Below, piece by piece: positions 159 to 36,868 of a stretch of DNA of 37,791 nt. The stretch comes from Candidatus Symbiothrix sp. (lineage in GTDB: Bacteria > Bacteroidota > Bacteroidia > Bacteroidales > Azobacteroidaceae). The stretch spans positions 1 through 37,791 of the forward strand of contig JAISUM010000050.1 of assembly GCA_031272095.1 (NCBI GenBank), written 5' to 3'. The position numbers were made by a program, and so were the translations under genes. Every line of letters begins with the position of its first letter. Position 1 is the stretch's first letter. The notes under the pieces are model-generated. The model searched no databases and was not told where the DNA came from. It worked only from the letters and a program-made list of their open reading frames with translations.

Positions 159-266
159 TTTTTTATCGGCGGCTTTTTGGTTTGTTCCGGAAAAAATATT
201 CACTTTTTGTAGAAATTGACCTAATATTTGGAACTTTTTATCCGATACCCTAACGATTTTTTCGCT

Positions 267-274
267 TACCTTTG
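267..274 (+). promoter_or_regulatory. Bacteroidota -7 promoter element TACCTTTG
   Basis: TACCTTTG about 40 nt upstream of ATG 315; matches the known TAnnTTTG consensus. Confidence 0.5.
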
Positions 275-314
275 CACCGAAATTCAAAATATAAATTTTA
301 AAATTGAAATATCA

Positions 315-3300
315 ATGAAAAAACCATTATTATTTTTTCTGCTAACGACAGCCGTTGCGATGTGTTGTTTTAGGTTGGAAGCACAGAACTTTGTCCATCC
401 GGGCGGTTTGGTTTCGCAAGACGATATCGAGCGGATTCAATACCTGCGGGAAGTGGAAAAGGACGCTACCATTGTCGCCGCTTACAACAAATTGCAGGCG
501 AACAGCCACGCCAAAAGTACTTACAGCCCTAATCCGCAAGTGCGTGTGGACAGGGGTGGCGACGAGTTTTCCGACAACTATACGATTGCCATGAACGATG
601 CGGCGGCGGCTTTTCAAAATGCTTTAATGTGGCGCATCACGGGCATCACCGCTCATGCCGATTGCGCTGTGCGTATCCTCAACGGATGGGCAAAAACCTG
701 TACGAACATCACCGGCGACACCAACGCCTCCTTGGCTTCGGGCATCTACGGATACGAATTTGCGCAGGCAGGCGAACTCTTGCGCGGCTATTCGGGCTGG
801 GCGGACGCCGATTTCAAAGCCTATCAAAACTGGATGCGCGATTTGTGGTATCTTCGCGCACTGTATTTTCTCGATTTCCGGCACGGCAGAACTTGCGCCA
901 CCAACGAAGGCGCCCATTATATGTCGAATTGGGGACTCTGTAACGCCCTTGCCGTGATGAGCATCGGTATTCTTTGCGACGACGTGGATATGTATAATCG
1001 CGGTTTGCATTATTACAAAGATGATATTTGCGGCAACTTTACCGACGAATACCGCAATCCCATACGCGCCACCGGTAACAACGAATTTCTGGGAAATTTG
1101 GTGAACTGGCTGCATCTCGACGCACGCGGTCCTTACGGCTATCTCGGACAGATGCAGGAAAGCGGACGCGACCAGTCGCACGCGATGATGGCTGCCGGAT
1201 TGGCTGCCGACGTCTGTCAGACGGCTTGGAACCAGGGCGACGACCTCTATTCTTTTATGAATAACCGTATCGCCGCCGGATTTGAATACATCGCCTTGGT
1301 CAATTCGCTCGCTTCCGAAACGATAGTCGCCGACTCGGTGCCTTTTCAGCCCTATTCGCGGGTAGGTTTGGCAGCCGAAGGCTACGAAATGACTGCCAAC
1401 GGGCTGACCGGCTGGGGCGCTTCCCGTCCGTATTGGGACAAAATTGTGGCGCATTACGGATATTATAAAGGTGTAAATATGACCTATTCGCGCAAGATGA
1501 AAACCAAAGTCGGCGTCGATGGCGGTGGCGGCGATTACGGCAGTAATAGCGGCGGCTATGACCACCTTGGTTTTTCGACCATCATCAATTATATTCCGCA
1601 AACGTGGTATCCGGCGGCAAATATGGTGCCGGTTGTCGTAACGCCACACATTATCTATAACGGAATAACTATCAACGACAACCGCAAAAGCGGCGTTACG
1701 GCAGGCAGCAGCATCACCCTCTCGCCGACTTTGCCCGAAGGCGTAACCGGCGGAACATGGAAATGGGACAGTGGTGAAACTACCCGCGAACTCACTTTTA
1801 ACGTGCAGAACAGCGGCATCCATCGTGTCGTCTATACAGCGACCAACGGCAGAACCACCAAACAGGCATTCAACATTTCCGTATGGGGCGACTGTATCCC
1901 CGATAAGATTCATCCGTCCATCAGCGTTGGCGATGTTACTTACGAAGACAGTGTCGTTACGGTGTTGCCCTATCAAGCGTTTACCTTAAAAATCCGCAAT
2001 TTTGTATGGGGCGAAACGCGCTTTGCAAGTTCGATCAAATGGAGTACCGGAACGAGTAATAATTCCTTGTCATGCACCGTATCAGGCGGCGTGCGCAGCG
2101 ATTCTACTTTATGGTGCGAATATACCAATCTGGGCGGCGCCGTTACCCGCGTCAACTACCATCTCAAAATAGTCTATGTAACGCCTTCGCATGCGATCGA
2201 CGGCGGCAGCGATGTGTCGGGCAGTCAGATTCCGTTAGAGGCAGGACAAAGCGTCGAATTGAAACCGGTAACGGTTACCGGCTACAACGGCGGCGCCTTC
2301 CATTGGAACACCGGTCATCATTCGCAAAACCTGTTGTTGCTGAATGTGCAGAAAGGCGCCAAATATACCACCTGTTATACGCTCACCAAAAACGGCGTAA
2401 CGACGGTGGATACACTGGAATTTACGGTTGGCGTCAAGAAAAACGTCTATCAGTTGGCTAACGGCGATTATTACATTCGGCGGGCAAGCGACGGCGCCTA
2501 CCTGACCAATCCCAACGCGACGGCATCGGAAAAGATCAAACCCCTCTTTGTCGCAGAGCACAACACCGCCGATTCGCTTTCGCAGATCTGGACGATCAGC
2601 AAAGAAACGGCAAGCGACGCGGGCGGACGTTTTAAAATCGTTTCCAAAAAGAACGGCAACTACATCAATGAAAACTGCGAGTTCGGCACCAATCCCTATT
2701 ATTCGGCATGGAACACCTACACTTTCTATGCGGTGGAAGGCGCCGATTTGTATGCCATTCGGAACGGTGGTAGCAGCGGCACCATGTACTGGACTATTTC
2801 CGGCGACCAGATTGTCGGCAAAGGCGCCAGCGCACAGGACGGCTATCCTTTTTTGATTCAAAGCGTTAACGGATCGTATCCTCTCACGCCACCTGACGAA
2901 GGCGAAAACATCATTTCTTACATTGCTCCGGCATATTCCGTCAATGGCGGCAAATCGCAACGCGGCAGCACGATTTCGTTAGAGGCGGGGAAAAGCCTCA
3001 TCCTCAAACCCTACAAAGTCAGCGGATTGAGCGGCGGCAGTTGGCTCTGGTCTGACAATTCGACCGCAGCCACTCTCGATCTGGGAACCGTCAACAGTAG
3101 CGGCGTCTATACCGTAACGTTCACCTATCCCGAAGCGGATTCGACCTACGTTTTCCCGCTCACATTCACTGTGTCCGTTCCCAGCGATCTCCCTGCGGTA
3201 GAACAAGGAAAGATAGCGATTTATCCCAATCCGGTGAAAGACAATCTCGTCATTGCGGGCTTGACCCGCAATCCCCTGCAAAACGTGCAGATTTACGACA

Positions 3301-3434
3301 TCACCGGTGTCCGCATCTCAACCCCTCTCCCTGTCGGAGAAGGACAAGGGGTGAGGATCAATGTCTCCCACCTGCCTTCCGGCATATATTTTATAAAAAT
3401 CGGCGCTTGGACAGGCAAATTCATTAAACACTAA
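315..3434 (+). CDS. Secreted alginate-lyase-like (alpha/alpha-barrel) protein with a beta-trefoil-like region and a T9SS C-terminal sorting domain
   Basis: ORF 228..3434; ATG at 315 gives a signal peptide (MKKPLLFFLLTTAVAMCCFRLEAQ). N-terminal region (FVHPGGLVSQDDIERIQYLR...ALMWRITG...ANEGAHYMSNWG) resembles alginate lyase family proteins. C-terminus AIYPNPVKDNLVI...GIYFIKIG is T9SS-type. Confidence 0.75.
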   Translation: MKKPLLFFLLTTAVAMCCFRLEAQNFVHPGGLVSQDDIERIQYLREVEKDATIVAAYNKLQANSHAKSTYSPNPQVRVDRGGDEFSDNYTIAMNDAAAAFQNALMWRITGITAHADCAVRILNGWAKTCTNITGDTNASLASGIYGYEFAQAGELLRGYSGWADADFKAYQNWMRDLWYLRALYFLDFRHGRTCATNEGAHYMSNWGLCNALAVMSIGILCDDVDMYNRGLHYYKDDICGNFTDEYRNPIRATGNNEFLGNLVNWLHLDARGPYGYLGQMQESGRDQSHAMMAAGLAADVCQTAWNQGDDLYSFMNNRIAAGFEYIALVNSLASETIVADSVPFQPYSRVGLAAEGYEMTANGLTGWGASRPYWDKIVAHYGYYKGVNMTYSRKMKTKVGVDGGGGDYGSNSGGYDHLGFSTIINYIPQTWYPAANMVPVVVTPHIIYNGITINDNRKSGVTAGSSITLSPTLPEGVTGGTWKWDSGETTRELTFNVQNSGIHRVVYTATNGRTTKQAFNISVWGDCIPDKIHPSISVGDVTYEDSVVTVLPYQAFTLKIRNFVWGETRFASSIKWSTGTSNNSLSCTVSGGVRSDSTLWCEYTNLGGAVTRVNYHLKIVYVTPSHAIDGGSDVSGSQIPLEAGQSVELKPVTVTGYNGGAFHWNTGHHSQNLLLLNVQKGAKYTTCYTLTKNGVTTVDTLEFTVGVKKNVYQLANGDYYIRRASDGAYLTNPNATASEKIKPLFVAEHNTADSLSQIWTISKETASDAGGRFKIVSKKNGNYINENCEFGTNPYYSAWNTYTFYAVEGADLYAIRNGGSSGTMYWTISGDQIVGKGASAQDGYPFLIQSVNGSYPLTPPDEGENIISYIAPAYSVNGGKSQRGSTISLEAGKSLILKPYKVSGLSGGSWLWSDNSTAATLDLGTVNSSGVYTVTFTYPEADSTYVFPLTFTVSVPSDLPAVEQGKIAIYPNPVKDNLVIAGLTRNPLQNVQIYDITGVRISTPLPVGEGQGVRINVSHLPSGIYFIKIGAWTGKFIKH
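3252..3280 (+). repeat. Palindrome family A, in-frame copy (ATTGCGGG-CTTGA-CCCGCAAT-CCCCTGCA)
   Basis: 8-bp perfect arms, loop CTTGA, flank CCCCTGCA; encodes IAGLTRNPLQ inside the T9SS domain. Loop and flank shared with the intergenic copy at 30101-30130. Confidence 0.85.
3318..3358 (+). repeat. Palindrome family B, in-frame copy (encodes STPLPVGEGQGVR)
   Basis: TCAACCCCTCTCCCTGTCGGAGAAGGACAAGGGGTGAGGA; similar to copies at 6875-6921, 6933-6975 and 16419-16459. Confidence 0.85.
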
Positions 3435-3465
3435 ACATTAAGCACTAAACAATAAACACTAATTA
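3424..3465 (+). repeat. Degenerate heptamer array (TTAAACA CTAAACA TTAAGCA CTAAACA ATAAACA CTAATTA)
   Basis: Six period-7 units; the TAA stop of the upstream CDS (3432-3434) lies inside. Confidence 0.7.
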
Positions 3466-3477
3466 AATATTATCAAA

Positions 3478-6400
3478 ATGAGCACAACAATTCAAAAATT
3501 CGGTTTTTTATGTCTGTTTTTAGTAGCAGGCATATCGGCGTGGGCGCAACAAACATTGCCCACCAGCGGCGAGTACTATGTAATCAAAAATTACGCGAGC
3601 AGTACTTACATCGGAGGTTCAGGGTCAGGCAACGATGCGGTCAAAAACGAAGCATCCGGCACTAATGACATCTACCATGTATTTTCGGTAACCGGTAATA
3701 ATACCGATGGTTGGACATTGAAACAGCCATACACCGGTAATGAAATCAGGTACAACAACCAATGGACTATGTCTTACAAGACGTCAGGCGATAATGTCTT
3801 GTGGATTCTGGTAGATCAAACCGATTATTTTGTTATCAATCGGAAAGGTCAGTCCAACGGTATCGGCGGCGACAATGTGGCATCGGGAAACACTTTGTAT
3901 TCCAACAAAACGGAAACGGCAACCCTCCCCAATAAATGGCTGTTCGATGCCAATGAAGCCCGCAGTATTTGTCTTACCCATCTTCAAGCTGTGATTGATG
4001 ATGCGCAAAGCTTTCACGATGCTAATTCCACAGTGGCAGGCGCGAGCGATTTGCAAACAGCCATCAATACGGCAAACGCTGTGGTCAGTAACGGCACGAC
4101 ACAAGATCTCTTGGATGCAATAGCCCCGCTGCAAACAGCAAAACAAGCTTTTGTAAGTGCTATTGCGCTTGCCAACGCCATCGCTAATGCTTCGTTTGAT
4201 AATCCGGTAGATCTGACCGTCGTGATTACCAATCCCGCTTTCGACAACAATACCAAAGACGGTTGGACAGGGACAGGTACGGCAAACTACCACGAAATAG
4301 AAAATTATCAGGTGAATTTTGATTTCTATCAGGTGTTGAGCGGATTGCCCGCCGGAAAATACGAGCTGAAAGTGCAGGGTTTTCAACGTCCCACAGGCAA
4401 TTCGGCAGATCAGGTCATCGCCGCTGATAACGGTACGGATGTAAAAGTGGCAAAATTGTATGCCACCGGCGCTACGGAAATCAATCTTTTGCTGTCGTCT
4501 GTTTATTCCGAAAAAGAATGTACGGCAGGTTGGGAAAATGCAGGTATTAAATATCCCAACTCAATGGCGGATGCCGAAACGGCTTTCAATGCCGGCAAAT
4601 ATGAAAACACCTTGAGCAATATTGTTGTAACGTCGGCAGGCACGCTGACTATCGGCGTGAAAAGTACTTACACCTCAGGCGTATCCGGTCAATGGATCCT
4701 GTTCGATAATTTCCGTCTGACCTATTACGGTGAGGTTTATGCGGTTACTTTTGAGGTTGATGGCGGCAGCGAAGTATCGACGCAACTCTTGTCAAAAACC
4801 GGCGACGGACTCGTTACCGAGCCTGCTGCTCCGAACAAAACAGGTTATACTTTCGACGGCTGGTATGCCGATGCAGGTTTGAATACACTTTTCAACTTTG
4901 CAACTGCCATTTCGGGCGATGTAACTATCTATGCTAAATGGCATGATAATACTCCCGATGCCATTGCCACACTGATAGCCGCTTATACTCCGGCGAAAGC
5001 TTTTTATGACGGCATTGATGAAAGCGACGTAATGGCGTCAGGTGATCCGGATGAGGCAGGCAAATATTCATACACGAATTATACGGCGCTCGGCAATGCG
5101 TTGACCGCCGCCGCAAACATATTGAACGATTGGGACGAATCGACTTCCACTTACAGCGGATCCGTCTCGGTCATCGATATCCTTGCCGCCGCTGCAGCCA
5201 TAGCGCCTGCACAAGCTGCTTGTACCGTGTATGTGGCTTTGAATACGATCCCCGATGGCGAATATTACATCAAAGTCGGCAACTATTATTTCAACAATTT
5301 CGGCACTATAAATCAAGTCCTTTCAACCGCCAACAACGGGTTGCAAACGACAAAAAACATTACCGACGGACATCAAATATTTACCGTAGCCAAACTGTCG
5401 GGAACAGACCATACTACCGTGCTGACAACCGGAAGATACTCAATATTCAATGTCTTTAACAGCGCCTATCATATAACGGAAGAGGCTGTATTCAGAGATA
5501 CTTGGGGGACTCCGGCAAATGCAGGCGACGACCTTTGGCGCACCTTCAATATCTATTACAATGGTACGGCTTATGCCATTCAACGCAAAGCAGGCAACAG
5601 CGACAACGTAATGTGCTATTGGACTTTTGACGGTGCTGTACTGAAACCGGCGACTGCAACAAGCGCTTCGTATATATTTGACTTCATCCCCGTTGCCACC
5701 GTCTTTGCCGAAGAAATTGCCGCAGGTCGCGCATTGTACAACACCGCAACCGAAGGCAATGGCGACGGACAATATGCAGCAGCTGTGTTGTCGGCTTTCG
5801 ACGCCGCCCTTGACGTTGCCGAAGCCATCAGCGTCGGCACAAAAGAAGATTTGTTCGTATATGCCGCCGCTCTTGCCGAGTTTATACCGAACAAAGTATA
5901 TAGTGCAGACGAAACGCTGACTGCATCCGCTCGCTACTACAATGTTACCGTCAATGCAGGTGTAACGCTCACCGTCCCCACCGGCGTCAGCCTCACTGCG
6001 GACAACACGCTCACGCTCAAAAGCAATGATGCCGACGGTACGGCGCAAATCGTAACCGACGGATCCGTCGTTGCCAACGGCGCCGTTGTGGACAAAACGG
6101 TTTCGTACAGCGCCAACAGCTGGTATCCGATAGGTTTTCCGTTTGAATTGAACGGCGTCTATGCTTTTTCCGAATATCTGACGGCACACAAAGAGACAGC
6201 CGGCGTGAGTGGTGATTACTGGCTGAAAACCTACACATCGGGCGCAGAAACCGTATCGCAGTGGGCAGATACCATTGAAGCAAACACAGGCTATGTTGTC
6301 GCTTTCCCAACGGCGTTCAATAATACCGAAGTCAGCTTTATCTCTGCCTCCGGCGTCAATATCAGCAATGCCGGGTTCGCACCGTCAGGCACGGCAGCAT

Positions 6401-6795
6401 ACGCTTTGATCGCCAATCCGACTTTGCAAAATATCACTTTGGCAGACGGCGGCAACTACTATTATTACACTTATGTGGCTGCCTCCAATCGTTTCCTGCG
6501 CATCGCTTACGAAGGCGACGCCACGCTGCAACCCTTCGAGTCGTTCATTGTCGCCTACACCACTGATCCGAGCAGTTTGCGAAGCTCGTTCTCGGTAGAA
6601 GAAGCGACAGATATTCCATATCTGCGAGATATGGAATATCTTGACGATCCTATCGTGAAAACGGAATATTATAATCTGCAAGGTATTAGATATTCCATTT
6701 CTCAAAGAAATGGAATATCTAACGGAACTCCCTACATCGTGAAAGAGGTACGCCAATCGGGGAGAGTAACTTCTAAAGTGATTAGTGGTAAGTGA
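3478..6795 (+). CDS. Large secreted protein with InlB B-repeat (Listeria-Bacteroides repeat) and beta-trefoil-like regions; C-terminal sorting-like domain
   Basis: Signal peptide MSTTIQKFGFLCLFLVAGISAWAQ; motif VTFEVDGGSEVSTQ...PAAPNKTGYTFDGWYADAGLNTLFNF...VTIYAKW; C-terminus EYYNLQGIRY...PYIVKEVRQSGRVTSKVI. Confidence 0.75.
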   Translation: MSTTIQKFGFLCLFLVAGISAWAQQTLPTSGEYYVIKNYASSTYIGGSGSGNDAVKNEASGTNDIYHVFSVTGNNTDGWTLKQPYTGNEIRYNNQWTMSYKTSGDNVLWILVDQTDYFVINRKGQSNGIGGDNVASGNTLYSNKTETATLPNKWLFDANEARSICLTHLQAVIDDAQSFHDANSTVAGASDLQTAINTANAVVSNGTTQDLLDAIAPLQTAKQAFVSAIALANAIANASFDNPVDLTVVITNPAFDNNTKDGWTGTGTANYHEIENYQVNFDFYQVLSGLPAGKYELKVQGFQRPTGNSADQVIAADNGTDVKVAKLYATGATEINLLLSSVYSEKECTAGWENAGIKYPNSMADAETAFNAGKYENTLSNIVVTSAGTLTIGVKSTYTSGVSGQWILFDNFRLTYYGEVYAVTFEVDGGSEVSTQLLSKTGDGLVTEPAAPNKTGYTFDGWYADAGLNTLFNFATAISGDVTIYAKWHDNTPDAIATLIAAYTPAKAFYDGIDESDVMASGDPDEAGKYSYTNYTALGNALTAAANILNDWDESTSTYSGSVSVIDILAAAAAIAPAQAACTVYVALNTIPDGEYYIKVGNYYFNNFGTINQVLSTANNGLQTTKNITDGHQIFTVAKLSGTDHTTVLTTGRYSIFNVFNSAYHITEEAVFRDTWGTPANAGDDLWRTFNIYYNGTAYAIQRKAGNSDNVMCYWTFDGAVLKPATATSASYIFDFIPVATVFAEEIAAGRALYNTATEGNGDGQYAAAVLSAFDAALDVAEAISVGTKEDLFVYAAALAEFIPNKVYSADETLTASARYYNVTVNAGVTLTVPTGVSLTADNTLTLKSNDADGTAQIVTDGSVVANGAVVDKTVSYSANSWYPIGFPFELNGVYAFSEYLTAHKETAGVSGDYWLKTYTSGAETVSQWADTIEANTGYVVAFPTAFNNTEVSFISASGVNISNAGFAPSGTAAYALIANPTLQNITLADGGNYYYYTYVAASNRFLRIAYEGDATLQPFESFIVAYTTDPSSLRSSFSVEEATDIPYLRDMEYLDDPIVKTEYYNLQGIRYSISQRNGISNGTPYIVKEVRQSGRVTSKVISGK
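6609..6641 (+). repeat. Palindrome family D copy 1, in frame (15-bp arms, 3-nt loop)
   Basis: AGATATTCCATATCT-GCG-AGATATGGAATATCT; 33 nt. Confidence 0.9.
6686..6722 (+). repeat. Palindrome family D copy 2, in frame (17-bp arms, 3-nt loop)
   Basis: TTAGATATTCCATTTCT-CAA-AGAAATGGAATATCTAA; translated in a different phase from copy 1. Confidence 0.9.
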
Positions 6796-6802: not shown

Positions 6803-6835
6803 CTGATAGCATCACTTCGGAGTGATACTATCAGT
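6802..6835. repeat. Palindrome family C, full copy
   Basis: ACTGATAGCATCACT-TCGG-AGTGATACTATCAGT; 15-bp arms with one mismatch. Confidence 0.85.
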
Positions 6836-6874
6836 GAAAAACAGAGATCTTTAAAAAACAGAAATACTAACAAT

Positions 6875-6921
6875 CCTCACCCCCGACTCCTCTCCAATTT
6901 GGAGAGGGGCAAGGGGTGAGG
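6875..6921. repeat. Palindrome family B, intergenic copy
   Basis: CCTCACCCCCGACTCCTCTCCAATTTGGAGAGGGGCAAGGGGTGAGG. Confidence 0.85.
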
Positions 6922-6932
6922 AAAAACGCACT

Positions 6933-6975
6933 CACTACTCCCCCTCCCTTTGTGGGGAGGGGGTTGGGGGTGAGG
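6933..6975. repeat. Palindrome family B, second adjacent intergenic copy
   Basis: CACTACTCCCCCTCCCTTTGTGGGGAGGGGGTTGGGGGTGAGG. Confidence 0.8.
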
Positions 6976-6981
6976 TCTAAT

Positions 6982-7260: not shown

Positions 7261-7295
7261 ACTGATAGTATCACCTTCGCAGTGATACTATCAGT
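7261..7295. repeat. Palindrome family C, full copy
   Basis: ACTGATAGTATCAC-CTTCGCA-GTGATACTATCAGT; 14-bp perfect arms. Confidence 0.9.
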
Positions 7296-7306
7296 GAACA
7301 AAAAAA

Positions 7307-8764
7307 ATGAAAAACTTATTAATCATCCTCTGCATTTTCAACCTACAGTTCGCCGCCTACAGTTCGCCGTTCTCGATTTTTGATGCGGAAACGCCTGTGC
7401 GCGAAGTGCAAACCGATATGGGGATTGCCATGCAGCCCGACGAAAAAGTCCGCTGGATGCTCGACGACAAACTCGGTATGTTCATCCACTGGGGCTTGTA
7501 TGCAGGCGTGGCGCAAGGCGAATGGTATATGGAAAACAAAGGCGTTTCTCTCGAAGAATACCGCAAATTGGCATATCCCGAATCGGGCGAGCTGTATTTC
7601 GATGCCCGCGATTTTGACCCCAAAAAATGGGTAGCGCTGGCGCAAAAAATGGGCGCCCGTTATATGAATATGACTGCGCAACACCACGACGGCTATGCGC
7701 TTTTTGAAAGCAAATACATCAACGCTTTCACATCCAAACAGACGCACAACCGCGATTTTGTGCGCGAATATGTTGACGCCGTCCGTGCCGCAGGCTTAAA
7801 AGTCGGACTGTATAAAACGCTGATCAACTGGCGATTTGCCGGTTATTACGATGTTACGGGAACAGATTGCCAGCCCAACAAATTCGGCTACACAACGGCA
7901 GCGTGGCACAAAGAAAATGCGCGTCTGATGAAAGAAGAACTCTTTTGTCAAATCAAAGAGCTGATGAGCAATTACGGACGTATTGACCAGCTTTTTTGGG
8001 ATGGCGGTTGGTTAGCGCAACAAGGCACAGACGCTTCCGGCGCCTATTTCTGGGAGCCGGGGAAATATTTAGACCCCGCCAATCAATGGCAGGTCAATCC
8101 TTATTTTCAGGAATTGGATGACAACGGCAAAGCGCTGGGGTTGATGGGCATTGTGCGAAAATATCAACCCGATATTCTTGCCAACCTGCGCAGTGGATGG
8201 TGCGGCGACTATACTTGCGAAGAAGGCGGGGCGGCAGTCAAAGGCAAAATCCGGCAGGGTGTGGTGGAAAAATGCTTTACCATCACATCCGGCTGGGGCT
8301 ATACCAAAGCGATGGAAGATGAAAGCAGACTGATGTCCCTGCGCGAAATCAAACGGATTTTTGCCGACTGTATTGTGCGTAATATGTGCTGCCTGATCAA
8401 TGTCGGACCGGATCGACACGGCAACATCCCGCAGCCGATAGAAAAGCGTTTGAGCGAATTTGGCGAGTGGGTACATGCGGCAAGTGAAGCAATTTACGGC
8501 ACACGGGCGCTCTGGCAACCTGTTGATAATCAATACGGTTTCTGCTACAAAGACAATGTGATCTACATTTATTTTCTCGGCGGCTACACCGACCGCGAAT
8601 TTACCTTACCGACGCTCAATAAAGGCATCAAAGCTCGACAAGCCTATAACGTCCTCACAAAAGCGAAAGTCGAATTTGCGCAAAAAGGACAGACCATCAC
8701 ACTGAAAAACATCCACCCCATTCAAAACGACATCACTATCATCGCACTAATCACTAACCACTAA
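7307..8764 (+). CDS. Alpha-L-fucosidase, GH29 family
   Basis: KLGMFIHWGLYAGVAQGEWYMEN, KKWVALAQKMGARYMNMTAQHHDGYALFES, GRIDQLFWDGGW; signal peptide at N-terminus. Confidence 0.88.
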   Translation: MKNLLIILCIFNLQFAAYSSPFSIFDAETPVREVQTDMGIAMQPDEKVRWMLDDKLGMFIHWGLYAGVAQGEWYMENKGVSLEEYRKLAYPESGELYFDARDFDPKKWVALAQKMGARYMNMTAQHHDGYALFESKYINAFTSKQTHNRDFVREYVDAVRAAGLKVGLYKTLINWRFAGYYDVTGTDCQPNKFGYTTAAWHKENARLMKEELFCQIKELMSNYGRIDQLFWDGGWLAQQGTDASGAYFWEPGKYLDPANQWQVNPYFQELDDNGKALGLMGIVRKYQPDILANLRSGWCGDYTCEEGGAAVKGKIRQGVVEKCFTITSGWGYTKAMEDESRLMSLREIKRIFADCIVRNMCCLINVGPDRHGNIPQPIEKRLSEFGEWVHAASEAIYGTRALWQPVDNQYGFCYKDNVIYIYFLGGYTDREFTLPTLNKGIKARQAYNVLTKAKVEFAQKGQTITLKNIHPIQNDITIIALITNH

Positions 8765-8821
8765 TCACTAATCACTAATCACTAACCACTAACCACTAAC
8801 CACTAACCACTATTCACTAAT
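8745..8821 (+). repeat. Heptamer array, 11 units of CACTAAY-type
   Basis: CACTAAT CACTAAC CACTAAT ... CACTATT CACTAAT; the GH29 stop TAA (8762-8764) is the third unit. Confidence 0.9.
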
Positions 8822-15044: not shown

Positions 15045-15810
15045 ATGAAGATCCATTTTAAAAAAAATCTCGAAAATTTAATCCTTTTGTTCCTGATTTT
15101 TGTCATTGTGGCATGCAGCGCGTTCACAATCCTCTATGTTTTTATTGGTTTTAAAATCGCCTTTTTTTACGAATTAATGTTAGCATTAGCCAATTTTATC
15201 TGGTTGATTACCCTCCGAAATGCCTCTTATAAGGAAATGCGGATTTCGGCGCGGCTCTATCTGAATTTGATGACCGTTTTACTCTATCCGCTCCTCTTGA
15301 TCAATTACAAAACCGGTCCGCCCACCTCGCTGATGTATTATCTCCTAATCCCGCTCGGGATGTTGCTGTTTGACAAACGAAAAAATCTTTGGATATTAAT
15401 CGTAAAAAACGTTCATCGTTACTCCCACCTTCGACTTTGAGTTCGACGATAGTGTCGGACAATCTGAAGATCGCCGCCAAATCTTGCTCTCCAAGATTCT
15501 GAATTATTATGAGCGGCGCCAGGCTTTTACTCACAATGATTTCACGCTTTCGCAACTGTCCAACGACTTAAATTCAAACAATCTGTATGTCGGACAGGCA
15601 ATTGCGCTGACCGGTATGAATTTTTCCGAATTTACCAACAAATACCGCGTCGAAATGGTCAAAAAAATGATCGCACAAGGCGACTTGAACAAATATGCGT
15701 TCCGTCATATCTATACCAAAGCAGGCTTCCGTTCGCAAAGCGCTTTTAATGAAAATTTTAAAAAATTTGAAGGCATGACACCCAATGAATATAAAAAGAA
15801 ACGGAGGTAG
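15045..15810 (+). pseudogene. Membrane-anchored AraC-family HTH regulator, broken by a frameshift or internal deletion
   Basis: ORF 15045..15440 has several TM segments and no HTH; ORF 15484..15810 has an AraC-type HTH (FSEFTNKYRVEMVKKMIAQG...IYTKAGFRSQSAFNENFKKFEGMTPNEYKKKRR). The HTH frame reads open upstream to about 15406 (TFIVTPTFDFEFDDSVGQSEDRRQILLSKI), overlapping the first ORF in another frame. Confidence 0.65.
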
Positions 15811-15905
15811 TGGTTAGTGATTAGTGGTTAGTGATTAGTGGTTAGTGATTAGTGGTTAGTGATTAGTGGTTAGTGATTAGTGGTTAGTGATTAGTGGTTA
15901 GTGAT
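15808..15905 (+). repeat. Perfect 14-mer (double heptamer) array, 7 x TAGTGGTTAGTGAT
   Basis: Read directly; first TAG (15808-15810) is the stop codon of the HTH ORF. Confidence 0.95.
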
Positions 15906-15924
15906 TGCGACTTCTTAGGCTTTT

Positions 15925-16992
15925 CTACCCCATTTCCCTTAAATAATCTAACGCTTCTTCGATTTCCTGTCTGTCGGCAGTTTGGTTGATTTCAATTTGT
16001 CCGACGCCACGCAAAAGCGTAAAATTGATGTTGCCCGATTCGTTTTTTTTGTCGTGCTGCATCAGTTCGTACAGATGCGGATAATCGCTGCAATCAAGCG
16101 GAAAAACGCCATAATTTTCTTTCACAAAGCGCGTTGTTTTCGACAAGATTGCCTTATCGAAACCGAGTTTGAGAAACGACAGATAAAGTTCGCAAACCAA
16201 TCCCCAAGCCACCGCGTAACCGTGCGGAACGGGATGATGCCGCTCGTGCGACAAACTTTCAAAAGCGTGTCCGACGGTATGTCCAAGATTGAGCGCCTTG
16301 CGGAGTCCCTGTTCGTCAGGGTCTTGGCGAACAATATTTTCCTTTATCAAAACCGATTCAAAGAGCAGGTTGTTGAGTTTTTCGTAATTGATAGCATCGA
16401 AATCGAAAGCGAGGATTTCCTCGCCCTCTCCATTTTGGAGAGGGGGTTGGGGGGTGAGGAACCAATGTTTCATCAATTCCGCATACCCGGAAAGTAAATT
16501 CGTCATATCCAGCGTTTTACAGAATTGCGCATCAATCAAAACCGCAAAGGCAGGGCAAAACGCGCCGATTTCGTTTTTCAGTCCGCAGAAATTGATACCG
16601 GTTTTTCCGCCGACAGCCGCATCCACCGCGCCGAGTAGGGTAGTGGGGATATTGATAAATCGGATGCCGCGTTTGAAAGTTGCCGCAGCAAAACCGGCGA
16701 GGTCTGTCAACATTCCTCCTCCGAGATGGATTAACAGCGATTTACGGTTTGCGCCGTTTTCCGAGAGAAATTTCCAGACTTCCGACAGGGTTTGCAAATT
16801 TTTATTTTCATCGCCTGCGGAAATACTGAATTTTTTTGCCCTTTCGATTTCCGGAATGGAAGCAATGCGTGGCAGGCACAATTTTTCGGTATTCTCGTCG
16901 GTCAATACGAACAAACCGCTGTATTTCAACGTTTTTAGCAATGCGGATAAATCGTTTGCAATATCGTTGCTGCGGATAATTTTTTGCTGCAT
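15925..16992 (-). CDS. aroB: 3-dehydroquinate synthase, with an in-frame palindrome insertion
   Basis: LIHLGGGMLTDLAGFAAATFKRGIRFINIPTTLLGAVDAAVGGKTGIN, LNLGHTVGHAFESLSHERHHPVPHGYAVAWGL. Confidence 0.92.
   Translation of the reverse strand: MQQKIIRSNDIANDLSALLKTLKYSGLFVLTDENTEKLCLPRIASIPEIERAKKFSISAGDENKNLQTLSEVWKFLSENGANRKSLLIHLGGGMLTDLAGFAAATFKRGIRFINIPTTLLGAVDAAVGGKTGINFCGLKNEIGAFCPAFAVLIDAQFCKTLDMTNLLSGYAELMKHWFLTPQPPLQNGEGEEILAFDFDAINYEKLNNLLFESVLIKENIVRQDPDEQGLRKALNLGHTVGHAFESLSHERHHPVPHGYAVAWGLVCELYLSFLKLGFDKAILSKTTRFVKENYGVFPLDCSDYPHLYELMQHDKKNESGNINFTLLRGVGQIEINQTADRQEIEEALDYLREMG
16419..16459 (-). repeat. Palindrome family B, in-frame copy within aroB (encodes LTPQPPLQNGEGEE)
   Basis: CCTCGCCCTCTCCATTTTGGAGAGGGGGTTGGGGGGTGAGG on plus strand; same family as 6875-6921. 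Confidence 0.9.
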
Positions 16993-21144: not shown

Positions 21145-22545
21145 TTATTGAATGATAATTTTTCTTGATTGATTGTTGATAAAAATGATATATACGCCGG
21201 CATTGGGGAGCGTGAAAGTTTCCCAATGACCGTTGCTTGGTCGGTCAAGTAAATATTGTCCCTGCACATTTGCGATACGCACGCGGTCGCCTGCGGCATA
21301 AGTGCGATAGGCAATGTCGCGTCCGTTGGTGTAGAGGTCGGCGTAGCTGCTTCCGACGGGAACGATGGCGTCAGCCGACGAACAGACGCCTTTCAGCGGG
21401 ACGGCAACGCTGCCCGAAATTCCGCCATCGGACAGGACTAATAAGGCGCTATGTTCGCCGTAGTCTTTGGGGTTATAACTGATTTTCAGGCTGTAACCCG
21501 ATTCCGCATTGACCGATGCTGCGGATACGGAAGTTACATTCGTCGAGAAATAACCCGATGCGTTGGAAAAGAGCGTGATTGACAAATTGCCGGTCAGCCC
21601 AACGCCTTTCAGCGCTACGGTGCGTTCCACTTCCGCATCTTTGCGGATATCGCCGAAATAGATTTCCGTAGAATTAGCCGTAGGGGTAATCAGGGCTGGT
21701 CCTACCGGTATCAAATTTTCGGGCAGGGCAAAGGGGTAGTCGATCGAATCTCCCCAGATATATTCCACCAACTGCGGAAAATCAATGAAGGGATTGCGAT
21801 TTTGCTGGTAGCCCCAGACGGCATTGTTGCGGTCGATTTCTTTTTGACTGACCGCATCCTGACGGTGCCATTGGAGCAACATTGCCTGCGCCCATGGTTT
21901 CAACACCGGATAGGTCTCTTTGTTGAACATATTCAGGGCGTCGCTACGCCAATAATCGGCATAATCTTCGTAGCACGTTATCATATAAAAATAAGTGCGG
22001 GCAAAATCGCCTTTGTATTCGTCGGCAGGTTCAAAGGCTTTGGCGGTAGAAACCGCCTGAAAATTGTAGGCATTGGCGCCGATTTTGGAAACGCCGTTGT
22101 CGAAGGTCGGCGATGCCACTTCGCCCAGCATATAGTTCGATTTTGCAATATTGGCGGCGCCGTCGGAGGGGTAGAGGTGATTCAAATCGCTGTAAGCGTC
22201 ATATTTACTGACTTCGGACGAGACTGCCCACCAGCTTTTCGGCAATGAATGTTCTTTGTTCATATCGGAGGTGCTGCCGTAAGGGTTGCTGTTAAAATAG
22301 CGCACTGTATTGGAATACATATCCCAGACGGTTCGTCCGTCGGCATGCACGTCGGTCGTATGAAAATAATACCACAAATCGTTGTAACTCAACACACTGT
22401 GATTTTTCAATATCAGGTGCAAGGCGGTTTTGATGGCGCGTTGCTGTTTGCCGTCTATCGTGCTGTAATAGCCTTCCGGTATTTGTGCCGACAAGAGTGC
22501 AGGCAGCAGAAGAAACGCGATGATCAGATGAAATATACTTTTCAT
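21145..22545 (-). CDS. Secreted endonuclease I (EndA/Bsn-type) family nuclease, paralog 1, with C-terminal sorting-like domain
   Basis: DLWYYFHTTDV...VWDMYSN...NKEHSLPKSWW...DLNHLYPSDGAANIAKSNYMLGEV; signal peptide; C-terminus GVYIIFINNQSRKIIIQ. Confidence 0.85.
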   Translation of the reverse strand: MKSIFHLIIAFLLLPALLSAQIPEGYYSTIDGKQQRAIKTALHLILKNHSVLSYNDLWYYFHTTDVHADGRTVWDMYSNTVRYFNSNPYGSTSDMNKEHSLPKSWWAVSSEVSKYDAYSDLNHLYPSDGAANIAKSNYMLGEVASPTFDNGVSKIGANAYNFQAVSTAKAFEPADEYKGDFARTYFYMITCYEDYADYWRSDALNMFNKETYPVLKPWAQAMLLQWHRQDAVSQKEIDRNNAVWGYQQNRNPFIDFPQLVEYIWGDSIDYPFALPENLIPVGPALITPTANSTEIYFGDIRKDAEVERTVALKGVGLTGNLSITLFSNASGYFSTNVTSVSAASVNAESGYSLKISYNPKDYGEHSALLVLSDGGISGSVAVPLKGVCSSADAIVPVGSSYADLYTNGRDIAYRTYAAGDRVRIANVQGQYLLDRPSNGHWETFTLPNAGVYIIFINNQSRKIIIQ

Positions 22546-22555
22546 AGTCAGTAGA

Positions 22556-23662
22556 TTAACGGTTAAACAGTCGGGTGGTTTTCGACCTGCCTTGTCGGTC
22601 GATAAGTTGTATCACATAGACAGCTTGTGGCAAGGCACTCGTTTGATAGGGCGCTGCCGACAGCTCGGCTTGCCACACCGTTTGTCCCTGCATATTGTAG
22701 ATGCGCAACAAAGCCGGTGCGTAGAGATTTTTCACTTGCAGGCAAGCGTTTTCAAAACAGGCAAGCGGCTCAAATACTTCGAGCGTTTCCAAATCGGTTT
22801 CGGAATAGGGGTTGAACGCGAAAGTGATCGAATCGCCCCAGACATATTCTGCCAACTGCGGAAAATCGATATAGGGATTGCGGTTGTGCTGATAATTTGT
22901 ATAAATTTCGTTGTTGCGGTCGATCTCTTTTTGACTGACGGGGTCGGCGGCGTTCCATTGCAGGAGCATTGTGATTGCCCACGACTGAAAGGCGGGATAT
23001 GCCGTGCCGTTGATTGTCGGTTTTGCCTCTGCATTGCCATACCAGCTTGCCACCACATTTTCGTAGCGGGTTACCATATAAAAATAGCTGCGGGCGAAGT
23101 CGCCTTTGTACTCGTCGGCAGGTTCAAAAACGATGCCGGTATAGCCTGCGATGGTGTTTTGTCCCAATTTTGTGCCGGTGCCGTTAAGTTCCGATTGGGT
23201 ATTGTTGGCTACCATGCCGAAGGGATAATTGCTGCGATAGCCGTTCACTTTCCCGTCGGTGGGGTAGAGGTGAAAAAGGTCGGTGTACATGGGATAAGCA
23301 TCGTTGAACCAGCTTTTCGGGAAAGAATGTTCGCGGTTATAGCAGTCGCATACGGCGTTGTAATTGCCGCATTGTTCGCTGACAAACGTGAAGGTGCAAT
23401 TGCTGTACATATCCCAGACTTTCCCGTCGTTGCGGACGTCGGTTGTTTGAAAAGCCGTCCACAAGTCTTTGTAGGTCAATTCGTCGTGGTCTTTGATCAC
23501 GTTATACATCGCTGTTTTCAGGGCTGCCTGTTTTTTCCCGAAGGCGCTGTTGTAGTATCCGGCGGGAATTTGTGCCGACGCAGAAAACAAAAGGAAAAAT
23601 AGGGCGTTGCCGGTGAGCAACGCCTTATTCAAAAGAATTATATAACGTGATTGAGTGTGCAT
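22556..23662 (-). CDS. Secreted endonuclease I family nuclease, paralog 2, with T9SS-like C-terminus
   Basis: DLWTAFQTTDV...VWDMYSN...NREHSFPKSWFN...DLFHLYPTDGKVNGYRSNYPFGMV; C-terminus LRIYNMQGQTVWQAEL...AVYVIQLIDRQGRSKTTRLF. Confidence 0.85.
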   Translation of the reverse strand: MHTQSRYIILLNKALLTGNALFFLLFSASAQIPAGYYNSAFGKKQAALKTAMYNVIKDHDELTYKDLWTAFQTTDVRNDGKVWDMYSNCTFTFVSEQCGNYNAVCDCYNREHSFPKSWFNDAYPMYTDLFHLYPTDGKVNGYRSNYPFGMVANNTQSELNGTGTKLGQNTIAGYTGIVFEPADEYKGDFARSYFYMVTRYENVVASWYGNAEAKPTINGTAYPAFQSWAITMLLQWNAADPVSQKEIDRNNEIYTNYQHNRNPYIDFPQLAEYVWGDSITFAFNPYSETDLETLEVFEPLACFENACLQVKNLYAPALLRIYNMQGQTVWQAELSAAPYQTSALPQAVYVIQLIDRQGRSKTTRLFNR

Positions 23663-30138: not shown

Positions 30139-30140
30139 CA

Positions 30141-30182
30141 TTAACCACTAATCACTAATCACTAACCACTAACCACTAACCA
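30141..30182 (+). repeat. Heptamer array, 6 units (TTAACCA CTAATCA CTAATCA CTAACCA x3)
   Basis: Period-7 repeats between divergent genes, next to palindrome family A. Confidence 0.85.
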
Positions 30183-30201
30183 CTATTTCACTATTTTTTC
30201 G

Positions 30202-35186: not shown

Positions 35187-36809
35187 ATGGCAACGTTACG
35201 CAAAAAACTGCCGATTGGCATACAAACTTTTGAGACAATTATCAGCGAAAATTATGTTTACGTTGATAAAACGCGGTATTTGGTCGAAATGATTGATACA
35301 GGCAAAATTTATTTCCTGTCCCGTCCGCGTCGTTTCGGCAAATCGTTGACTGTATCGACCTTTGATGCAATGTTTTCCGGCAAAAAAGAACTGTTCAAGG
35401 GACTGTATGCCGAAGAGTTTATGAATCGGGCGGATTATTACAGTTCGCCGGTTATTCGTCTGGATATGAGCCAGGTAACAACATATTCCAACTTTGAAAG
35501 ATTCGAGGCGTCGATAAATCTCATGCTTGAAAGTATTGCAAAAAAATATGACATTGAGATTAATAACAGTTTTTCGCCGGATGTTATTTTCAACAAATTA
35601 ATTCAGGATATTGCCCAAAAACACGGTAAAGTTGTGATTTTGCTCGACGAATACGATAAACCCTACGTCGATTTCTTCACTCAACCCGAAAAAGCAGAGC
35701 AGATTAGAGGTTTTTTGCGAAACTTCTATGTCCAAATAAAAGCAAACGACGAATATATCCGCTTTGTGTTTATCACCGGAATTTCAAAATTTGCCCGTTT
35801 CGGCGTGTTTTCGGGCTTAAATTCGCCTGAAGATATTTCACTGACAAAACGATATGGCAAAATGCTGGGATATTCCGAAGAAGAAATCGTTAAATATTTT
35901 TCGGAAGAATTAAAAGATACTGCTGAAGAATTGGGAATTTCCGTTGACGCACTGCTTGACAGAATGCGTTATTATTACGACGGATTCTGTTTCGACGGCA
36001 TTCATAAACTTTACAATCCGTTTTCTACTATCAACTTTTTCAAAGCAAAAAGTTTCGACAATTTTTGGATGGAATCAGGCACTACCAAATTGATTACGGA
36101 TTATCTGAAAACGCATAAATTAAGTGTAGAGCAGTTTCATAATATTCAGGTTTCGCGCGATTTTGCTCGAAGTCCGGGCGATATGGATTCGACGCCGCCC
36201 GAAGGTTTTCTTTATCAAGGCGGATATTTGACCATCAGCCGCGCCGAAGGCGAGTTTTTAGCGCTTGATTATCCTAATACAGAGGTGCTTAACTCGATGT
36301 CGCGCTTGGTGTCGGAAATTGTTTGCAAACGTAACGACGATGATTTTGCGCATTATCGCAGCGATTTGTTGGCAGCACTTTCTTCCAAAAATAAAGAGAA
36401 ACTTTCAAAAGTATTTAATTGCCTTTTGGCAAGTATTCCGTACGATGATTTCAGGCGTGGCGCCGAACGAAATATCTCTGATAATATTTATGACTTTCCT
36501 TTGCACGAATGGCACTATCGTTCGATGATTCTGGCTTTTGTGCGCGGTTGCGGAGTGGCTGCTGTTGCCGAAATGCACACCAATCTGGGGCGTGCCGACT
36601 TGGTGCTGGACTATCTGGGAAATGTTTGGGTAATAGAAATTAAAGTAGCATACAAACCGGAAGACGTACCTGCAAAACTTGCCGAAGCAAAAGCGCAAAT
36701 TATAGACGGCAATTACACAGCGCCTTATCCCAATTCTACCGCAATCGCAATGGTGATTGACGATACCAAACGGGAATTTACGGAAAGCGAAATAGTGGTT
36801 AGTAGTTAG
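35187..36809 (+). CDS. AAA-ATPase-like / PD-(D/E)XK nuclease-like protein
   Basis: LPIGIQTFETIISENYVYVDKTRYLVEMIDTGKIYFLSRPRRFGKSLTVSTFDAMFSGKKELFKGLY; VILLDEYDKPYVDFF; C-terminal GRADLVLDYLGNVWVIEIKVAY (nuclease core). Confidence 0.88.
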   Translation: MATLRKKLPIGIQTFETIISENYVYVDKTRYLVEMIDTGKIYFLSRPRRFGKSLTVSTFDAMFSGKKELFKGLYAEEFMNRADYYSSPVIRLDMSQVTTYSNFERFEASINLMLESIAKKYDIEINNSFSPDVIFNKLIQDIAQKHGKVVILLDEYDKPYVDFFTQPEKAEQIRGFLRNFYVQIKANDEYIRFVFITGISKFARFGVFSGLNSPEDISLTKRYGKMLGYSEEEIVKYFSEELKDTAEELGISVDALLDRMRYYYDGFCFDGIHKLYNPFSTINFFKAKSFDNFWMESGTTKLITDYLKTHKLSVEQFHNIQVSRDFARSPGDMDSTPPEGFLYQGGYLTISRAEGEFLALDYPNTEVLNSMSRLVSEIVCKRNDDDFAHYRSDLLAALSSKNKEKLSKVFNCLLASIPYDDFRRGAERNISDNIYDFPLHEWHYRSMILAFVRGCGVAAVAEMHTNLGRADLVLDYLGNVWVIEIKVAYKPEDVPAKLAEAKAQIIDGNYTAPYPNSTAIAMVIDDTKREFTESEIVVSS

Positions 36810-36820
36810 TAGTTAGTGAA
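36793..36820 (+). repeat. Heptamer array (TAGTGGT TAGTAGT TAGTAGT TAGTGAA)
   Basis: Four units; the stop TAG (36807-36809) lies inside. Confidence 0.8.
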
Positions 36821-36868
36821 AAATCATATAAATCAATAGAGTCATTCTAAAATCAATTCAGACAATAA

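Follow-up and report, generated by a model that had tools for sequence, protein, structure and literature searches.

In-frame copies of dispersed palindromic repeats in a loop of 3-dehydroquinate synthase from Candidatus Symbiothrix and its relatives

Results

The window analysed here, a stretch of 37,791 nucleotides, belongs to a Candidatus Symbiothrix genome of 2.3 Mb (G000; 141 contigs, 87% complete), of which it forms a single contig. Its nearest named relatives, the Dysgonomonadaceae and Candidatus Symbiothrix, are termite-gut dwellers, with Symbiothrix living attached to gut protists. On the reverse strand of the window (positions 15925-16992) lies an intact aroB gene for a 3-dehydroquinate synthase of 355 aa, recognised as an ORF with the Pfam domains DHQ_synthase and DHQS_C and by the TIGR01357 aroB model, for which it scored 304.3 bits against a cut-off of 305. 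Its predicted fold agrees with solved 3-dehydroquinate synthases. Comparison with the nearest relative gave a dN of 0.18 and a dS of 1.95, and dN/dS was approximately 0.1 for most of the AroB and IlvD pairs tested; aroB is under purifying selection. An earlier note on this DNA had described AroB as an essential core enzyme. It is a core enzyme, but no AroB match was found in two genomes of the same genus, G030 (99% complete) and G061 (97% complete); its essentiality is therefore unproven here, and it may be dispensable in the genus.

Within aroB lies a copy of a palindromic element, termed family B, with one arm truncated (16415-16461, forward strand). A covariance model whose training set included this copy matched it with 51.7 bits and an E value of 4.6e-12 in its own genome; the copy is carried by one MAG. 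The hairpin core, the exact palindrome CTCTCC-ATTTT-GGAGAGG, occupies positions 16426-16443, and a conserved one-sided tail, GGGGTGAGG (longer form GGGGGTTGGGGGGTGAGG), lies at 16451-16459 on the forward strand. The core arose in 0 of 100 shuffles and the tailed half-element in none, neither being expected once in the window, which rules out a chance palindrome and upholds the earlier note's observation of a palindrome lying in frame in AroB. The aroB transcript segment is predicted to fold at -33.3 kcal/mol (z = -4.73).

On the coding (reverse) strand, positions 16417-16455 are the codons supplied by the element, for AroB residues 180-192 (TPQPPLQNGEGEE), and positions 16417-16458 code for LTPQPPLQNGEGEE, residues 179-192; the predicted translation across the insert reads HWFLTPQPPLQNGEGEEILAFD. 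These residues form a loop directly after a helix that carries E172 and K175, both invariant across a 52-sequence alignment. In the predicted structure (mean pLDDT 92.7), this loop appears as the only poorly ordered segment, the block of residues 181-190 being the sole one below 70, at 58.

The segment from the SGYAE motif up to, but not including, the FD motif spans 28 residues in the window AroB and 23 in Dysgonomonas and most relatives, in keeping with the earlier statement that it is typically shorter. The element contributes 13 residues where the baseline loop holds 8, a net gain of 5 aa or 15 nt that came at the expense of about eight host codons, lost or overwritten. The homolog alignment that had been proposed as a check was made with 30 genus members (Dysgonomonadaceae/Symbiothrix, the window included) and 47 other genomes. 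At the element site the outgroups keep a constant short loop of 8 residues; the family-B segment of AroB is non-ancestral, and an ancestral AroB loop is ruled out as its source. What had been called an insertion is thus a non-ancestral palindrome, but one that partially replaced the host loop rather than being simply added to it.

Family B has the consensus CCCCTCTCC-N4/5-GGAGAGGGG-N1/4-GGGGTGAGG, about 35-47 nt long, and a census was taken by pattern and model searches of the 2.3 Mb genome. The exact tailed pattern gave 15 copies, compared with 0 for a reversed-pattern control, and the covariance model, trained on 36 copies including that of the window, gave 37 matches at approximately 28 distinct places, most of them intergenic. 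Two intergenic copies, one near-symmetrical (6873-6923) and one a CCCTCCC variant (6932-6977, forward strand), lie in the window where members of the family had previously been placed, near 6875-6975. A further repeat, CTTCG.AGTGATACTATCAGTGAA, was seen at 6815-6848 and 7275-7308, and similar GATAGCATCAC stretches adjoin B copies elsewhere in the genome. The B pattern was present in 45 of 297 genomes sampled phylum-wide, and the family is therefore not confined to this genus. No relevant paper was retrieved from the literature for the core CCCCTCTCC.

Eight copies in this genome, with three weak matches left out, lie in long ORFs of recognisable genes. They are found in AroB, IlvD (two), MurC, NuoL, the start of LeuRS (two, in an ORF truncated by the contig end), and the T9SS sorting domain at the tail of the alginate lyase-like protein encoded at 228-3434 of the window (copy at 3314-3358, forward strand). 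The MurC copy sits within a MurG-MurC ORF; at locus L228, MurG and MurC appear as a single continuous open frame of 736 aa with a B copy within the MurC portion. Coding palindromes were also present in XylB, WbqC and a pectate-lyase-like protein of relatives. In B, the TGA of the tail GGGGTGAGG puts a fixed stop into one of the six frames; each of the others stays open in 37-42 of 42 copies. As the earlier note had stated, the P-L-x-x-G-E-G phase is common to the aroB copy and that at 3318-3358 (STPLPVGEGQGVR), but different phases are used in IlvD (DPSPIWRG), LeuRS (SPNPSPQGRG) and NuoL (TPSPQGEGG).

Within the genus, all internal AroB inserts of at least 3 aa fell in core columns 185-189 of 356, and inserts occurred in 10 of the 30 genus sequences versus 1 of the 47 outgroups (Fisher p = 2e-4, a value that ignores relatedness). 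These inserts range from 4 to 21 aa, are unrelated in sequence and are absent from many relatives. They derive from unrelated palindrome families, B, GTAGAGAC and TCATTGCGGG, the latter two of which are scattered through the genus and reach 48 and 174 copies, respectively, in a single genome. The loop DNA is family B in the window and in G026, with a decayed B-like stretch in G012; it is GTAGAGAC..GTCTCTAC in G002, G004 and G007, and TGTCATTGCGGG..GGGATGACA (also given as TGTCATTGCGGG..CACGGGATGACA) in G011. The stretches in G005, G016 and G032 have no clear palindrome and were left unclassified. A GACAATG heptamer array lies in frame in the same loop of one Paludibacteraceae sequence outside the genus (L128). 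A tree from which the loop was left out required a minimum of eight state changes, an approximate number because 15 of 31 inner branches are open, and the insert types alone demand at least five events. The AroB loop thus tolerates small repeats that land in it.

A similar recurrence was observed in IlvD, where three loop sites hold elements of the B, TCATTGCGGG, CGTCATTCCCGCG, CCCCCTTAATCCCCC and GTAGAGAC types; reading frames were open in the relatives of both AroB and IlvD that were retrieved as loci. Site 1 carries B in five genomes, with two copies in this genome, and the B copies take the place of a six-residue loop. At site 2, the element is TCATTGCGGGCTTGACCCGCAATC in both G026 and G019; G011 carries a CGTCATTCCCGCG type there and G005 a CCCCCTTAATCCCCC type. 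Five genomes retain remnants of the GTAGAGAC family at site 3. The AroB and IlvD trees each place G005 and G011 as close sisters, yet the two differ both at IlvD site 2 and in the AroB loop, which points to recent turnover. The IlvD structure model (mean pLDDT 51.6) was too poor for placing these loops structurally.

Other repeats were noted in the window. Heptamer arrays of CACTAAC/CACTAAT or the complement, mostly intergenic, are scattered over it as a second repeat class (3425-3462, 8745-8820, 15808-15906, 30139-30185 and 36793-36835). Two 33-nt palindromes, AGATATTCCAT..ATGGAATATCT, at 6609-6641 and 6688-6720 lie inside the ORF at 3478-6795 and are read in two frames (DIPYLRDMEYL and RYSISQRNGIS), forming a further coding palindrome family. 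Positions 21145-23662 contain paralogous stretches in two adjacent ORFs with a DNA identity of 84-86%.

Discussion

Non-autonomous palindromes very probably spread genome-wide in these bacteria, with purifying selection retaining, among genic copies, only those in frame in tolerant surface loops. Family B would have multiplied through the genome alongside several unrelated palindrome families, its copies inserting anywhere, and those in genes would persist only where the frame was kept and a solvent-exposed loop tolerated the extra residues. One such place would be the loop that follows the E172/K175 helix of AroB: a B copy may have landed there at the cost of about eight ancestral codons, and different palindromes would have entered this loop independently in other species of the genus. 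The peptide encoded by the insert is presumably translated and close to neutral. Family B seems suited to survival in genes because a fixed stop is confined to one frame out of six, and a large element load combined with strong selection on frame would leave genic survivors that are in frame and in tolerant loops, as observed. The earlier note had proposed selection for frame and position. The open frames and the recurrence in one loop do indicate a filter acting after insertion, but no observation points to selection for the insert as such.

We infer the mobility of B from its distribution. A comparison of filled and empty AroB and IlvD sites by eye revealed no target-site duplication, and the net gain of 15 nt fits a simple insertion poorly. 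Of 41 genus genomes, 20 had genes for Y1_Tnp (PF01797), and none was found in G000, which is 87% complete. Across the 41 genomes, the counts of B and of Y1_Tnp were not correlated (rho = 0.20, p = 0.21). With neither a Y1_Tnp gene here nor co-variation, the proposal that B is a REP moved by a Y1 transposase of this genome was unsupported.

The enzyme loops might also exchange material with intergenic repeats, such that palindromes are replaced or gene-converted at the same codons and the loop evolves together with selfish DNA, although we regard this as tentative and rather unlikely. Several observations hint in this direction. In three AroBs (L006, L009 and L010), GTAGAGAC inserts that look orthologous have similar flanks and differing cores, each perfectly palindromic, which suggests gene conversion or re-insertion, and the GTAGAGAC core of G004 was found again elsewhere in the G004 genome with one mismatch. 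The family differences between G005 and G011 and the overwriting of host codons by B in both AroB and IlvD are further such hints.

The very tight positional recurrence could instead reflect targeting at the DNA level, whereby a transposase or a replication-linked process favours a target sequence within aroB and ilvD, tolerance by the protein being secondary. The frequency of Y1_Tnp genes in the genus would agree with this; however, none was found in this genome, and B does not vary with them. Moreover, the elements in the AroB loop belong to unrelated families at slightly different codons, and the IlvD sites lie in a different gene with different flanking sequences, all of which makes such targeting improbable.

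A Pro/Gly/Glu-rich loop could give AroB a binding, regulatory or stability function, and both the persistence of inserts in core enzymes and the position of the loop beside the helix with the invariant E172 and K175 would suit this. Nevertheless, an adaptive role is very improbable given that inserts in the same loop share neither sequence nor length, that many relatives have none, and that the peptide of the decayed G012 copy is not conserved. The hairpin might act in the aroB mRNA instead of as coding sequence, by affecting stability, pausing translation or being excised, and the strong folding of the segment accords with this; yet any palindrome would fold in this manner, no Rfam family matched the element, and the open frames would be left unexplained. 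Removal of the hairpin from the mRNA, as raised in the earlier note, was unsupported, since precise excision requires no open frame and the retrieved AroB and IlvD relatives keep theirs; we accord the RNA-level reading only a very slight probability. Ordinary variation in loop length combined with chance G+C-rich sequence may be dismissed almost entirely: the G032, G016 and G005 variants without a clear palindrome would fit it, but not an exact match to a dispersed family where none is expected by chance, nor three unrelated dispersed families in one loop.

In-frame palindromes are already known, best from Rickettsia and Wolbachia and, in the form of REPs, from a scatter of other species. New here are the phylum, how many unrelated families occur within one loop, and the fast turnover. 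The genus offers natural replicates, in that close species can be compared at sites that are filled, empty or swapped, and the long-standing question of whether such elements are neutral junk or serve proteins as raw material thereby becomes directly testable.

The Rickettsia palindromic elements (RPEs) and the protein-coding palindromes of Wolbachia were reportedly described by Ogata et al. in 2000, 2002 and 2005. Family B resembles RPEs in being dispersed and in frame in AroB, IlvD, MurC, NuoL, LeuRS and a T9SS tail of a host-associated bacterium. RPEs likewise are dispersed palindromes in frame in many unrelated conserved genes of host-associated bacteria, but those reviewed are about 100-150 bp and Rickettsia-specific (PMC2229807, PMC10969869), whereas B measures about 35-47 nt, occurs in Bacteroidota and shares one loop with several other families. 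Intragenic REPs of the GTAG and CGTC superfamilies are 20-40 bp stem-loops, mostly intergenic with some in frame in genes, and different REPs occupy about the same recB site in two Xanthomonas species (PMC3733652). Family B is similarly a short, mostly intergenic stem-loop with some genic copies in frame, and the G011 IlvD insert is REP-like in containing CGTCATTCCCGCG, which bears the CGTC tag. However, the B consensus CCCCTCTCC..GGAGAGGGG..GGGGTGAGG carries no GTAG or CGTC tag, and, unlike for GTAG REP families, no REP-type tyrosine transposase was found in this genome (87% complete). Like MITEs, B is short, non-autonomous, dispersed and able to fuse with ORFs, but it consists of one hairpin with an asymmetric tail, no target-site duplication was seen by eye between filled and empty sites, and no parent transposon was identified. 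At 13 aa, the AroB insert is also unlike inteins and other self-splicing inserts, whose splicing domain exceeds 100 aa. Its size sets family B apart from RPEs, and its ends set it apart from GTAG/CGTC REPs; by analogy, it would work in the same way as RPEs and intragenic REPs, in a new phylum.
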